Of a DNA stretch of 64,000 nucleotides, positions 10,000-14,672 are shown piece after piece (position 1 is the first letter of the stretch; each line of letters begins with the position of its first letter). Source of the stretch: Polaribacter sp. BM10 (GTDB lineage: Bacteria; Bacteroidota; Bacteroidia; Flavobacteriales; Flavobacteriaceae); contig NZ_CP019704.1 in the NCBI RefSeq assembly GCF_002005425.1, positions 2,872,001 through 2,936,000 on the forward strand, given 5' to 3'. The translations under genes and the position numbers were made by a program. Under the pieces are notes generated by a model. The model had not been told where the DNA came from and did not search any database. It saw nothing but the letters and a program-made list of their open reading frames with translations.

Positions 10000-10269
10000 T
10001 TATTTTCTAATTCCTAATTCTTTGATAATCGCACGATATCTGTTGATTTCAGTTTTCTTTAGATAATCTAATAAACTTCTACGTTTACCTACCATCATTA
10101 CTAATGAACGCTCTGTATTAAAATCTTTACGATTTCTTTTTAAATGTTCTGTTAAATGGTTAATTCTGTGCGTAAATAACGCGATTTGCCCTTCTGAAGA
10201 ACCAGTATCGTTTTTTCCTTTACCGTGTTTTTCGAAAATGCTTTCTTTAACTTCTTTAGTTAAGTACAT
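10000..10269 (-). CDS. rpsO: 30S ribosomal protein S15
   Basis: An 89-residue primary 16S rRNA-binding protein of the small subunit. It has the standard length and the family core GSSEGQIALFTHRINHLTEHL and GKRRSLLDYLKKTEINRYR. It is the first gene of the rpsO-pnp pair. Confidence 0.97.
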   Translation of the reverse strand: MYLTKEVKESIFEKHGKGKNDTGSSEGQIALFTHRINHLTEHLKRNRKDFNTERSLVMMVGKRRSLLDYLKKTEINRYRAIIKELGIRK

Positions 10270-10326
10270 GCCAATATTATTTAAATGATTATTATGTATA
10301 TCAACGAAATTTTTTCATTGAAGGTG

Positions 10327-10334
10327 CAAATATA
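10327..10334 (-). promoter_or_regulatory. rpsO promoter, -7 element
   Basis: TATATTTG on the minus strand matches TAnnTTTG and lies about 58 bp before the rpsO start. Confidence 0.5.
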
Positions 10335-10446: not shown

Positions 10447-10555
10447 TAACTTTACGATACATTGATTAATTATTAAAGAAATTCATAAAACCAGTACTTT
10501 TTATTAAGTATATTTTACCAAATTGTCAATTCTTTTATAAAAAATGCGATATAAT

Positions 10556-10585
10556 TTGTTTGTCTCAATATAATCTTTAGATTTG
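10556..10585 (+). promoter_or_regulatory. Promoter of the aromatic amino acid operon
   Basis: TTG at 10556-10558 and TAGATTTG at 10578-10585, separated by 19 nt, match the Bacteroidetes housekeeping promoter (-33 TTG, -7 TAnnTTTG) in both boxes. Transcription would start near 10590-10593, about 18 nt before the leader-peptide ATG. This is the best promoter match in the window. Confidence 0.7.
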
Positions 10586-10608
10586 TCACATCAATAAAGA
10601 GAATCAAT

Positions 10609-10689
10609 ATGTTAAATAACACTTGGGCACGTTTCTATTTTTACTTTTACTTTTTTAGTGAGAGGAGAGACTTTGTATCATGTTATTAA
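10609..10689 (+). CDS. Phe/Tyr-rich attenuator leader peptide, 26 aa
   Basis: ATG at 10609 opens a 26-codon frame that starts MLNNTWARF. Residues 9-16 read FYFYFYFF. In total, 6 Phe and 4 Tyr occur in 26 residues, and the frame ends at TAA 10687-10689. It lies between a consensus promoter and a terminator hairpin, directly upstream of pheA, an aminotransferase, tyrA and DAHP synthase, so the codon bias matches the pathway products. By analogy with pheL of enterobacteria it should act as a sensor: ribosomes stall on Phe/Tyr codons when those charged tRNAs are scarce. I know of no description of this peptide; its function is inferred from sequence and position. Confidence 0.85.
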   Translation: MLNNTWARFYFYFYFFSERRDFVSCY

Positions 10690-10739
10690 ACAAAAAAAAA
10701 ATATATAAAGTCTCGAATTTAATTCGAGACTTTTTTTTT
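10667..10739 (+). promoter_or_regulatory. Attenuator: antiterminator/terminator pair before pheA
   Basis: The terminator is a 13-bp near-palindrome, 10707-10719 with 10721-10733 (core GTCTCGA/TCGAGAC), followed by T9 ending 11 bp before the pheA ATG. Its 5' arm can instead pair with an upstream segment: GAGACTTTGTAT at 10667-10678 pairs with ATATAAAGTCTC at 10703-10714, 12 pairs including one G-U. The upstream segment lies inside the last codons of the leader peptide. A ribosome that finishes at 10689 would cover it, so the terminator forms. One stalled on the Phe/Tyr run (10633-10656) leaves most of it free, so the antiterminator forms and pheA is transcribed. Confidence 0.82.
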
Positions 10740-10750
10740 GATATCAATTC

Positions 10751-11575
10751 ATGAAAAAAGTAATCGCTATACAAGGAGCCGAAGGTTCAAATCATCATAA
10801 AGTTGCAAGAGACTTTTATGGTGCATCTATAGATTTAATAGAATGCATGTCTTTTGATACTTTGGTAGATAATTTATTAGATGCAACAGCAAGCCTTGGT
10901 GTTATGGCTATCGAAAATACAATTGCAGGTTCTATTATACCAAATTATGCATTAATTGATAAAAATAATTTACATATTACCGGTGAAGAATATCTAAATA
11001 TTCACCATCATTTAATGGCTTTAGAAGGTCAGAAAATAGGAGATATCAAAGAAGTTTGGTCGCATCCGATGGCATTATTACAATGTAAAGAGTTCTTTAA
11101 AAAATATCCGCAGATAAAATTAGTAGAAGATGTAGATACTGCAGAAGTAGCAAAGAGAATTTCTAACGAAAATTTAATTGGTATTGCAGCTATTGCTCCA
11201 AAAATTGCTGCAGAAATTTTTAATTTAGAGGTAATAGAAGATGAAATTCAAACAATAAAAGACAATGCAACAAGATTTGTAATTGTACAAACAACAGCGC
11301 CAGAAATAAACGAAAAAGTTAATAAGGCATCTTTAAAATTTCAATTAGATCATAAAAGAGGAAGTTTAGCAGCAATATTAAATGTGTTAAGCGATTGTAA
11401 AATGAATTTAACTAAAATACAGTCTTTACCGGTTATAGAATCTCCTTGGAAATATTCATTTTTTGTAGATGTTACTTTTGATGCTTACAAAGATTACGAA
11501 AAAGCAAAAGCTATTATAGAAATAATGGCAGAAGAATTTAAGATATTAGGAACGTATAAAAATGGGAGAAAATGA
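10751..11575 (+). CDS. pheA: Prephenate dehydratase
   Basis: A 274-residue enzyme converting prephenate to phenylpyruvate in Phe synthesis. The periplasmic-binding-like catalytic lobes show AIQGAEGSNHHKVARDFYG, VMAIENTIAGSI and IKDNATRFVIV, where the last Thr-Arg-Phe is the catalytic TRF motif. An ACT domain follows from about residue 190. Its usual Phe-binding signatures GALV and ESRP are replaced by GSLA and QSLP, so classical Phe feedback may be weak or different. No chorismate mutase domain is attached; that activity sits on the fourth gene of the operon. The stop overlaps the next start by 4 bp. Confidence 0.95.
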   Translation: MKKVIAIQGAEGSNHHKVARDFYGASIDLIECMSFDTLVDNLLDATASLGVMAIENTIAGSIIPNYALIDKNNLHITGEEYLNIHHHLMALEGQKIGDIKEVWSHPMALLQCKEFFKKYPQIKLVEDVDTAEVAKRISNENLIGIAAIAPKIAAEIFNLEVIEDEIQTIKDNATRFVIVQTTAPEINEKVNKASLKFQLDHKRGSLAAILNVLSDCKMNLTKIQSLPVIESPWKYSFFVDVTFDAYKDYEKAKAIIEIMAEEFKILGTYKNGRK

Positions 11576-12714
11576 TTAAAGCTGCCAAAAGATTAGATAC
11601 AGTACAAGAATATTATTTCTCTAAAAAATTAAGAGAAGTTAGAGGTTTAGCTGCTGAAGGAAAACCTATTATTAATATGGGAATTGGTTCTCCGGATTTA
11701 CAACCGCCCACAAAAGTATTAGACGCAATTTCTAATAGTTTGGGTGATTCGAGTGCACATAAATATCAATCTTACCAAGGTTTACCAGAATTAAGAAATG
11801 CAATTTCAAATTTTTATAAAAGCAAGTTTTCTGTAGATGCAAATCCAGAAAATGAAATTTTGCCTTTAATGGGAAGTAAAGAAGGAATTATGCATATTTC
11901 TATGGCTTTTCTAAACGAAGGCGATAAAGTTTTAATTCCGAATCCTGGTTATCCAACGTATACATCTGTAACAAAATTAGTGGGTGCAGAACCATTGTTT
12001 TACAATTTAAGTGATGCAACCAATTGGCAACCAGATTTTGAAGCATTAGAAAATCTAGATTTATCTAATGTAAAAATTATGTGGGTAAATTATCCGCATA
12101 TGCCAACAGGTACAGATGCAACATTAATAACTTTTCAAAAATTAGTAGCATTTGGTAAAAAGCATAATATTTTAATTGTAAATGATAATCCGTATAGTTT
12201 TATTTTAAATGATAACCCTATTAGTATTCTACAAGTTGATGGCGCAAAAGACATTGCTTTAGAATTGAATTCTTTAAGTAAAACTTTTAATATGGCTGGT
12301 TGGCGAGTTGGTATGTTGTTAGGAAATGCAACATATATCAACGAAGTTTTAAAAGTAAAGTCTAATATGGATTCTGGTATGTTTTACGGAATTCAAAAAG
12401 GAGCTATAGAAGCTTTACAATTATCTGATAGTTGGTTTTCTGATCAAAATAAAATTTACGAAGAACGTAGAAAATTAATCTGGCAGTTGGCAGATAAATT
12501 AAACGCCACTTATAATAAAAATGCAACAGGTTTATTTGTATGGGCAAAAATACCAGAAAGTAAAAAATCTGAAGAAGTAACAGATGCGGTTTTATACGAT
12601 AATGATATTTTTATAACACCAGGTACAATTTTTGGTTCTCAAGGAGAAGGTTATATAAGATTTTCTTTGTGTGTAACAACAGATGTAATTAAAGAAGCAA
12701 TATCAAGATTATAG
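11572..12714 (+). CDS. Class I/II PLP aminotransferase of the aromatic operon
   Basis: A 380-residue fold-type I aminotransferase. The N-terminal IINMGIGSPDLQPP, the mid-protein NPGYPTY and NYPHMPTG, and the PLP-lysine motif SLSKTFNMAGWRVG are intact. Position between pheA and tyrA, with a 4-bp overlap with pheA, implies that it transaminates phenylpyruvate and 4-hydroxyphenylpyruvate to Phe and Tyr. Sequence alone would also allow aspartate or LL-diaminopimelate-type activity, so the substrate is inferred from context. Confidence 0.9.
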   Translation: MIKAAKRLDTVQEYYFSKKLREVRGLAAEGKPIINMGIGSPDLQPPTKVLDAISNSLGDSSAHKYQSYQGLPELRNAISNFYKSKFSVDANPENEILPLMGSKEGIMHISMAFLNEGDKVLIPNPGYPTYTSVTKLVGAEPLFYNLSDATNWQPDFEALENLDLSNVKIMWVNYPHMPTGTDATLITFQKLVAFGKKHNILIVNDNPYSFILNDNPISILQVDGAKDIALELNSLSKTFNMAGWRVGMLLGNATYINEVLKVKSNMDSGMFYGIQKGAIEALQLSDSWFSDQNKIYEERRKLIWQLADKLNATYNKNATGLFVWAKIPESKKSEEVTDAVLYDNDIFITPGTIFGSQGEGYIRFSLCVTTDVIKEAISRL

Positions 12715-12717
12715 GTT

Positions 12718-13569
12718 ATGAATAATATTTACATGATTGGTATTGGTTTAATTGGTGGTAGTTTTGCTATCGATATTAAAAACCACAATCCAGAAGCAGT
12801 AATTCACGGAATTAGTAGAAAAGACGAAACGTTAAATAAAGCTTTAGAATTAAAATTAATTGATAAAAAAGCGACATTAGACGATTTAGAAAATGCAGAT
12901 TTAGTAATTGTTTCAATTCCGGTAGATGCAACTGTAAAATTATTACCAACAATTTTAGATAAAATTTCTGATAATACGTTGGTTGTAGATGCAGGTTCAA
13001 CAAAAGAAGCAATTTGTAAAGTTGTTGAACATCATCCAAAAAGACGTAATTTTTTAGCAGCACACCCAATTGCCGGTACAGAAAATTCAGGACCGTCAGC
13101 AGCGATTTCTGGCTTATATAAAGGGAAAACGAATATAATTTGCGAAGTAGAAAAAACAACTTTTAAATTGCAAGAAAAAGCATTAGACCTTTTTAGAGCT
13201 ATTGGAATGCGTATTCGTTACATGGATCCTGTTTCGCATGACAAGCATATTGCGTATGTTTCGCACTTATCTCACATTAGCGCATTTATGTTAGGTAAAA
13301 CAGTAATAAACAAAGAAAAAAACGAGCGCGATATTTTTGATATGGCAGGTTCTGGTTTTGCATCAACAGTGCGTTTGGCAAAAAGTTCGCCAGCAATGTG
13401 GACACCAATTTTTAAACAAAACAAAGAAAACGTAATAGAAACGTTAGAAGAATACATCAATAATTTACAAAAATTTAAAGAATTGATGCAACAAGATAAT
13501 TTCTCTGAAATTTTTAATGAAATGGAGAATACAAATTATATAAAACAAATTTTAAACGGCATAAAATAA
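12718..13569 (+). CDS. tyrA: Prephenate dehydrogenase
   Basis: A 283-residue NAD(P)-dependent enzyme converting prephenate to 4-hydroxyphenylpyruvate for Tyr synthesis. The Rossmann motif IGIGLIGGSFA is at the N-terminus. VVDAGSTKEAI, FLAAHPIAGTENSG (substrate-binding His) and DPVSHDKHIAYVSHLSH are the family signatures. It lies 3 bp after the aminotransferase gene. No ACT domain or chorismate mutase is attached, so regulation by Tyr would have to come from the leader or from the DAHP synthase. Confidence 0.95.
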   Translation: MNNIYMIGIGLIGGSFAIDIKNHNPEAVIHGISRKDETLNKALELKLIDKKATLDDLENADLVIVSIPVDATVKLLPTILDKISDNTLVVDAGSTKEAICKVVEHHPKRRNFLAAHPIAGTENSGPSAAISGLYKGKTNIICEVEKTTFKLQEKALDLFRAIGMRIRYMDPVSHDKHIAYVSHLSHISAFMLGKTVINKEKNERDIFDMAGSGFASTVRLAKSSPAMWTPIFKQNKENVIETLEEYINNLQKFKELMQQDNFSEIFNEMENTNYIKQILNGIK

Positions 13570-13589: not shown

Positions 13590-14672
13590 ATGAAGAATAC
13601 AAAAGAATTAAGAACATGGTTGGATGATATGAAACTAGATCATCCACTAGTAATAGCAGGGCCTTGTAGTGCAGAAACCGAAGAACAGGTTTTAAAAATC
13701 GCACACGAATTAAAAGATTCTGATGTAAACTATTATAGAGCAGGAATTTGGAAACCTAGAACAAGACCAGGAAATTTTGAAGGTGTTGGTGCATTAGGTT
13801 TAGGTTGGCTTAAAAAAGTAAAAGAACAAACAGGCATGAAAACCTGTACAGAAGTTGCCAATGCAGCGCACTGTAAATTAGCCATAGAGCATGATGTAGA
13901 TTTACTTTGGATTGGTGCAAGAACAGCTGTATCTCCATTTATTATGCAAGAAATTGCAGATGCGTTACACGGTACAGATAAAATTGTTTTAGTAAAAAAC
14001 CCAATAAACCCAGATTTAGCTTTATGGTTAGGTGGTATCGAACGTTTGTATACAGCAGATATTAAAAATTTAGGAGCAATTCATAGAGGTTTTTCTACAT
14101 ACGAAAAAACAAAATATAGAAATGTTCCAGAATGGCAAATTGCTATCGAGTTTCAAAATAAATTTCCAGATTTACCATTAATTTGCGATCCATCTCATAT
14201 TACAGGTAACAGAGAAATGATTTTTGATGTTTCTCAAACTGCCTTAGATTTAAACTTCGATGGTTTAATGATAGAAACACATTTCGATCCAGATAACGCA
14301 TGGTCAGATGCTGCACAACAAGTTACACCAACGAAGTTAAAGCAAATCATGGAAGATCTAAAAATTAGAAAAGAAACAAACACAGAAGCAGAATACAAAA
14401 GCAGTTTAGATAATCTAAGAGCGCAAATTAACGTGGTAGATAACCAGTTGGTAGAAACTTTAGGAAAAAGAATGAAAATTGCAGATCAAATTGGAGCTTT
14501 AAAGAAAGATAAAAACGTTGCAGTTTTACAATCGAAACGTTGGAACGAAATCTTAGGAAACATGATTTTAGAAGGTGAAAGTAAAGGATTAAGTGAAGAG
14601 TTTGTTTTAAAAATGTTTAAAGCAATTCATCAAGAATCTATCAATCATCAAGAAAAAATTATTAAAGGATAG
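13590..14672 (+). CDS. DAHP synthase - chorismate mutase fusion
   Basis: A 360-residue bifunctional enzyme. Residues 1 to about 260 are a type I-beta (KDPG-aldolase-like) 3-deoxy-D-arabino-heptulosonate-7-phosphate synthase: VIAGPCSAETEEQ, YRAGIWKPRTRPGNFEG, KTCTEVANAAH, VLVKNPINPDLALWLGG and CDPSHITGNR. Residues of about 270-360 are an AroQ-type chorismate mutase helix bundle: SLDNLRAQINVVDNQLVETL, KRMKIADQIGALKK and HQESI. It covers the first committed step and the branch to prephenate. A C-terminal mutase domain is known to serve as the allosteric site in such fusions. It closes the pheA operon and is followed by a terminator. Confidence 0.94.
   Translation: MKNTKELRTWLDDMKLDHPLVIAGPCSAETEEQVLKIAHELKDSDVNYYRAGIWKPRTRPGNFEGVGALGLGWLKKVKEQTGMKTCTEVANAAHCKLAIEHDVDLLWIGARTAVSPFIMQEIADALHGTDKIVLVKNPINPDLALWLGGIERLYTADIKNLGAIHRGFSTYEKTKYRNVPEWQIAIEFQNKFPDLPLICDPSHITGNREMIFDVSQTALDLNFDGLMIETHFDPDNAWSDAAQQVTPTKLKQIMEDLKIRKETNTEAEYKSSLDNLRAQINVVDNQLVETLGKRMKIADQIGALKKDKNVAVLQSKRWNEILGNMILEGESKGLSEEFVLKMFKAIHQESINHQEKIIKG

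Follow-up and report, generated by a model that had tools for sequence, protein, structure and literature searches.

Organization of the pheA locus

The window (the whole stretch of DNA that was analysed, 64,000 nucleotides) contains pheA at the head of a run of genes on the forward strand, preceded by a promoter, a short leader frame and two sets of complementary segments. The features are as follows.

10267–10334, reverse strand: ribosomal protein leader S15-Flavobacteria (RF03161; 76.4 bits), oriented divergently to the pheA leader
10556–10558, forward strand: −33 box TTG of a Bacteroidota-type promoter, read on the sequence
10578–10585, forward strand: −7 box TAGATTTG, 19 nt after the TTG, read on the sequence against the consensus TAnnTTTG
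10609–10689, forward strand: leader ORF MLNNTWARFYFYFYFFSERRDFVSCY, 26 codons, with ATG at 10609 and the stop codon TAA at 10687–10689
10633–10656, forward strand: Phe/Tyr control codons FYFYFYFF, leader residues 9–16, kept in relatives
10667–10678, forward strand: antiterminator 5′ strand GAGACTTTGTAT, 12 nt
10703–10714, forward strand: antiterminator 3′ strand ATATAAAGTCTC, overlapping the 5′ arm of the terminator
10707–10733, forward strand: terminator hairpin, 12 bp with a loop of 3
10731–10739, forward strand: T9 tract of the terminator, 11 nt before the pheA ATG
10751–11575, forward strand: pheA, prephenate dehydratase (PDT), with an ACT match below the cut-off
11572–12714, forward strand: class I/II aminotransferase gene
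12718–13569, forward strand: tyrA, prephenate dehydrogenase
13590–14672, forward strand: fused DAHP synthase–chorismate mutase gene

The initial annotation had described a promoter with both boxes (TTG, 19 nt, TAGATTTG), a 26-codon frame with FYFYFYFF at residues 9–16, a terminator with a T9 tract that ends 11 bp before the pheA ATG, and a 12-bp pairing of 10667–10678 with 10703–10714 that competes with the 5′ arm of the terminator; all four are present on the sequence at the coordinates listed above. The consensus TAnnTTTG is that of sigma-A in passages of PMC9723704. The −7 box begins 31 nt before the leader ATG, a distance more common than any other in the 108 loci that have this kind of box. 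Of the 209 near and family loci with a leader, 94 have a TTG-N18–20-TAnnTTTG arrangement in the 90 nt before it, compared with 0.4% of shuffles. Upstream, the first ORF with 100 codons or more is on the opposite strand to the pheA leader. With this ORF and the S15 leader both on the other strand, no upstream gene is seen that the terminator could serve.

Conservation of the leader in relatives

Sequences for comparison were drawn from four samples, with pheA recovered from 89 of 97 genomes (genus), 108 of 119 (family), 57 of 197 (class) and 128 of 148 (phylum). Examined were 80 of the 89 genus matches together with the locus described here, 80 of the 212 named relatives (Polaribacter and Tenacibaculum for the most part), nearly all of the family matches (taken as 30 + 60 + 2 loci, with 15 more at the end), all 57 class matches except G378, and 50 of the 128 phylum matches. 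Removal of near-duplicate upstream regions left 251 of 301 loci. A leader was counted where an ATG frame of 8–60 codons with at least six Phe/Tyr codons in ten lay at most 450 nt from pheA; dinucleotide shuffles provided the background, and the loci are related, so that the counts are not independent.

Such a leader precedes pheA in 117 of 119 near, 92 of 96 further family and 15 of 36 mostly more distant non-redundant loci, and arises in shuffles at rates of 3.2, 2.3 and 1.0%, respectively. A chance Phe/Tyr frame in AT-rich DNA is ruled out by these shuffle rates. The loci added last, which are mostly the most divergent of the family (PheA identity 47–58%), have a leader in 15 of 15 cases. 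A second class-level set has one within 700 nt in 21 of 35 loci and none in the other 14.

Each of the 224 leaders counted has both Phe and Tyr in the 12 codons that end with its last Phe/Tyr codon; the means there are 5.0 Phe and 3.3 Tyr. The residues that flank the aromatic run vary by lineage (WQGFYFYFYFF, YFWNGFYFYFFFKRGTGLL, YTYFNNWFYFFFSKRNETLYV). At the level of protein families, the leader at this locus has no match to a Pfam leader-peptide family at E 0.001, and six leaders have no NCBIfam or Pfam match at E 10.

Nine loci were re-inspected over up to 1200 nt, and eight of them had no leader frame within 450 nt. The leader of L182 is further upstream, L237 has a weaker run (5 of 10) and L283 has a candidate with a GTG start. 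Among the near relatives, the Phe/Tyr runs of L081 and L085 are shortened and the frame behind the run is altered in L084; terminator-like hairpins are still there in all three. No such leader was found in up to 1200 nt upstream of pheA in L206, L207, L273 and L281. In L206, L207 and L281 pheA is followed by operon genes, yet no Phe/Tyr leader was found, and leader control may have been replaced in these loci.

When the loci with enough flanking sequence are sorted by gene content, a leader accompanies pheA and at least one other operon gene in 148 of 148 near, 58 of 59 family and 16 of 21 distant loci, and likewise in all 15 of the family loci added last. None of the 18 loci in which only pheA was recognised has a leader, even with the threshold lowered to 5 of 10; 17 of these 18 are distant, so that descent and operon structure are not separated. 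The sequence comparison suggests that the leader goes with the pheA operon and not with a lone pheA. Nearly all sampled Flavobacteriaceae that carry the operon have the pheA-operon leader, as do many other Bacteroidia. Divergent family members (L344, L350 and L352–L358) keep Phe/Tyr leaders before pheA followed by the DAHP synthase–chorismate mutase gene, with no aminotransferase or tyrA recognised between the two. As to whether Tyr codons disappear along with tyrA, the pheA–DAHP synthase loci keep their Tyr codons, but their tyrA may be elsewhere or too divergent for the search.

Alternative terminator and antiterminator helices

The strands GAGACTTTGTAT and ATATAAAGTCTC form a 12-bp duplex with one G–U pair. 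The full leader folds with −35.4 kcal/mol (z of −4.0; 0 of 200 shuffles as good). If the RNA is cut at 10716, ahead of the 3′ terminator arm, it takes the antiterminator fold with −20.5 kcal/mol (z of −1.85), which 13 of 200 shuffles match, so that this fold is not significant in the single sequence alone.

Covariation was assessed in an alignment built without structure (A1; 101 sequences out of 162 regions). Outside A1 are most of the near regions, the non-family ones, and L194, L229, L230, L234, L263 and L278; some of the regions outside had been cut at the wrong T run. In A1 96.6% of the terminator cells are paired, with 68 double changes, and the antiterminator core is 90.3% paired, with 54 double changes; for both helices 0 of 500 shuffles reach either value. 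The covariation scores of the terminator and the antiterminator are likewise reached by 0 of 500 shuffles, and slid versions score far lower. The number of antiterminator pairs with a double change is reached by 39 of 500 shuffles and that of further pair types by 74 of 500, and the sixth pair of the antiterminator is unformed in 35 of the 101 rows. When all 162 regions are counted, 97.1% of the terminator and 92.1% of the antiterminator core are paired. The three strands involved co-vary, as in GAGAC/GTCTC/GAGAC, GGGAC/GTCCC/GGGAC and GGGAT/ATCCC/GGGAT.

The same arrangement is found locus by locus. A leader and a terminator occur together in 117 near, 88 family and 15 distant loci, and the antiterminator duplex reaches p ≤ 0.05 against segment shuffles in 116 of the 117, 84 of the 88 and 13 of the 15. 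The antiterminator strand is seen in all three frames of the leader, being read as RRDF (L001), NETL (L123) or GTGL (L180), which argues that it is the RNA and not the peptide that is kept here. One common frame is used in 102 of the 117 near loci; the frame counts are approximate, as they take the first motif match and a few (for example L066) are misplaced.

Ribosome position and the predicted switch

The distance from the last Phe/Tyr codon to the first paired base of the antiterminator is 6–14 nt in 212 of the 213 loci with a significant antiterminator. A distance of 6–14 nt is about the reach, given the size of its footprint, of a ribosome with the last Phe/Tyr codon in the A site. The stop codons lie mainly at −2 to +25 nt from the start of the antiterminator, so that a ribosome finishing the leader would cover the antiterminator strand.

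The effect of ribosome position was modelled with a 29-nt mask on the RNA of this locus cut at 10716. The antiterminator has a probability of 0.85–1.00 with codons 1–16 in the A site and of at most 0.10 from codon 17 onwards, which places the switch where the Phe/Tyr run ends. Even with no ribosome on it, the cut RNA favours the antiterminator (P of 0.75). At equilibrium, the full transcript prefers the terminator with the ribosome at 26 of the 27 positions, codon 7 being a tie, and the terminator probability ranges from 0.55 to 0.94. As the terminator is favoured at equilibrium, the model needs kinetic competition, with the switch made during transcription.

A probable 1:2 hairpin

When the full leader is folded, a further, long helix appears that is absent from the features listed in the initial annotation.

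10610–10645, forward strand: strand 1 of the predicted 1:2 hairpin, from the fold of the full leader
10657–10692, forward strand: strand 2 of the predicted 1:2 hairpin, from the same fold, including the antiterminator strand

Synonymous sites were compared in the near relatives with an unbroken eight-codon run (101 of 119). The first codon of the run is TTC in 95 of 101, and the fourth is TAC in 95 of 97 Tyr codons; at the Phe/Tyr positions of pheA used as a control, T-ending codons are preferred at all 18. The Tyr codon at position 6 of the run is matched to the codon that follows the run: TAC occurs with AGY in 46 sequences and TAT with AAT in 52, with no crossed combinations and three others (n = 101). 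This pair of codons appears as a double change (29 of 62 rows) in the consensus fold of a second alignment (A2; 62 of 65 regions, with L051, L080 and L084 outside). A hairpin of the 1:2 kind is also present in the consensus fold of a second clade of 32 sequences, and both consensus energies are small, at about −3.6 kcal/mol.

Of the 224 leaders, 82 have a 1:2 pairing with p ≤ 0.05 when compared with base shuffles and only 49 when compared with synonymous recodings. In 198 of the 224, the start of the leader pairs with the segment after the run no less strongly than in the median synonymous recoding. The 1:2 hairpin is probably a third helix that competes for the antiterminator strand. A protective role is not borne out by the fold of the cut RNA without a ribosome, in which the antiterminator has a P of 0.75.

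Proposed mechanism and alternatives

The region holds a short leader ORF with codons for amino acids that the operon produces, a sequence with the form of an intrinsic terminator between this leader and the first gene, and an antiterminator one strand of which also belongs to the terminator. Judged from sequence, the element is very probably a transcription attenuator that works through the ribosome, like those of the trp/phe kind, and its control codons are a mixture of Phe and Tyr. The initial annotation had offered the attenuator reading and had placed the antiterminator strand just after the Phe/Tyr run. Both points gain support from the comparison: the frame and its Phe/Tyr codons are conserved while the flanking residues vary, both alternative hairpins covary, and the spacing behind the run is held at 6–14 nt in 212 of 213 loci.

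In the proposed mechanism a ribosome following RNA polymerase would begin to translate the leader. A shortage of charged tRNA-Phe or tRNA-Tyr would make it stall in codons 9–16, where it would break the 1:2 hairpin but halt just before the antiterminator strand (10667–10678). This strand would then be free to pair with 10703–10714, the terminator would be blocked, and pheA and the genes for the aminotransferase, TyrA and DAHP synthase–chorismate mutase would be transcribed. With both tRNAs plentiful, the ribosome would reach the stop codon and mask the antiterminator strand, and transcription would end near 10739. In an untranslated leader the antiterminator strand may be sequestered in the 1:2 hairpin; this is the least certain step. 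We infer that the leader is translated, that the helices compete kinetically, that Phe and Tyr are the amino acids sensed and that the operon is affected as described, with induction by shortage of Phe and Tyr.

The aromatic run itself allows another reading. The eight consecutive aromatic residues of this leader, and the dense aromatic stretches in those of relatives, could belong to a nascent arrest peptide, likened to TnaC, that stalls on sensing a metabolite, with the RNA switch following from the stall. The order and number of Phe and Tyr vary, however, and the residues around the run differ between lineages; the constants are the Phe/Tyr content and the spacing to the antiterminator, and we consider an arrest peptide highly improbable. 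A plain terminator, or a ligand-binding element that works independently of translation, would make the leader frame incidental in AT-rich DNA. The good stem followed by T9, the RNA-level constraint on part of the codon run and the ability of the cut RNA to make the antiterminator without a ribosome are all compatible with such an element. Nevertheless, shuffles yield such frames in only 1–3% of cases, the Phe/Tyr codons are kept while the strand that follows them changes frame, no upstream gene for the terminator is seen, and the window contains no T-box or riboswitch at gathering score, all of which leaves this explanation exceedingly improbable.

The attenuator reading would also accommodate Trp as a third signal, which would make the leader an all-aromatic sensor. 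All-aromatic sensing fits the presence of DAHP synthase in the operon. Trp occurs in 141 of the 224 leaders (2.8% of residues, a figure that stands without a background rate) and in 12 of the 15 family leaders added last, often within the aromatic stretch (NFWFFYF); short leaders at class level include MKLTQTYFWFYP, and one type there has TYFWFYP. In the footprint model a stall at codon 6 would leave the antiterminator free too. Set against this, the last Trp is 5, 9 or 10 codons before the last Phe/Tyr in 127 of the 141 leaders, and TGGCAAGGTTTC pairs in the 1:2 hairpin of several near relatives. These positions and this pairing could explain Trp without sensing, and a role for Trp as a signal seems rather unlikely, though less so than either of the readings above. 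Leaders with Trp are found at many Flavobacteriaceae loci, in L350–L357, and in L307, L309 and L316.

It could equally be the case or not that the attenuator is an ancestral device of the Bacteroidia, dual for Phe and Tyr (perhaps with Trp in many Flavobacteriaceae) and inherited with the pheA operon, and that the 6–14 nt ruler reflects pioneer ribosomes that follow close behind RNA polymerase without Shine–Dalgarno pairing. PMC9976891 and PMC10931766 describe Bacteroidota ribosomes as initiating without this pairing. With the attenuator, aromatic amino-acid control in a large bacterial group acquires a named leader gene as well as a defined RNA switch. If the attenuator reading is true, leader translation would also be coupled to transcription in Bacteroidota, and this coupling would become directly testable with one reporter.

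Other loci of the same genome show similar arrangements. At the hisG locus (L317:1191) a candidate histidine leader, MNFIQSHHHHFYNCNQAI, is followed by a terminator-like hairpin upstream of hisG, and at the ilvD locus (L323, position 1112 of the reverse complement) there is a candidate branched-chain leader, MKSFLNIISITSVIVIITV, with a terminator-like hairpin. These two candidates suggest that leader-type control may be general in this genome. In a simple scan, the three chorismate-binding genes of the genome had no adjacent trp leader, and its two homoserine dehydrogenase genes had no adjacent Thr/Ile leader.

Comparison with known systems

The S15-Flavobacteria leader is the sole Rfam match at threshold in the window, and the pheA leader itself has weak matches only. 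Bacteroid-trp (RF01692), an older Bacteroidetes element listed as probably cis-regulatory in the passages of PMC2864571 that concern it, belongs to another operon as judged by its name, which points to trp genes; it has no match at the gathering threshold in the window, nor at E ≤ 5 in 10540–10770. The initial annotation knew of no report for this group, which is too strong a statement. In passages of their paper, Guerin et al. (2021; PMC9723704) note a structured 5′ element before pheA of Flavobacterium psychrophilum that has no Rfam match and is also conserved in further genera of the Flavobacteriaceae, together with clues for leader-peptide attenuation before amino-acid operons in this species. 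Their element precedes the same gene in the same family as the attenuator described here; a leader sequence, its codon content, alternative helices and covariation do not appear in the passages concerned. In Bacteroides thetaiotaomicron, a passage of PMC7366714 describes short frames in 5′ UTRs that are reminiscent of attenuator leader peptides.

A literature search for mixed Tyr/Phe leader peptides gave no match. Among the literature matches listed, PMC9723704 is the only direct precedent, and Lopatovskaya et al. (2010) might cover Bacteroidetes. As far as the literature searches reach, the leader sequence, the mixed Phe/Tyr code and the switch with its covariation are new, as are the spacing rule, the co-occurrence with the operon and the range over Bacteroidia.

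The logic proposed here is the same as that of pheL/pheA attenuation. The pheL leader of E. coli has Phe codons and is not known to hold Tyr codons. The Rfam family of the proteobacterial pheL/pheA system, Phe_leader (RF01859), shares a leader with Phe codons, an antiterminator and a terminator before pheA; its score against the leader at this locus is 26.3 bits (E of 0.014), below the gathering score of 55, and the element falls outside this family as modelled. The pheA attenuator differs from the pheL/pheA system in that both Phe and Tyr codons are present in all 224 leaders counted, and in that the leader precedes pheA, the aminotransferase gene, tyrA and the DAHP synthase gene together.
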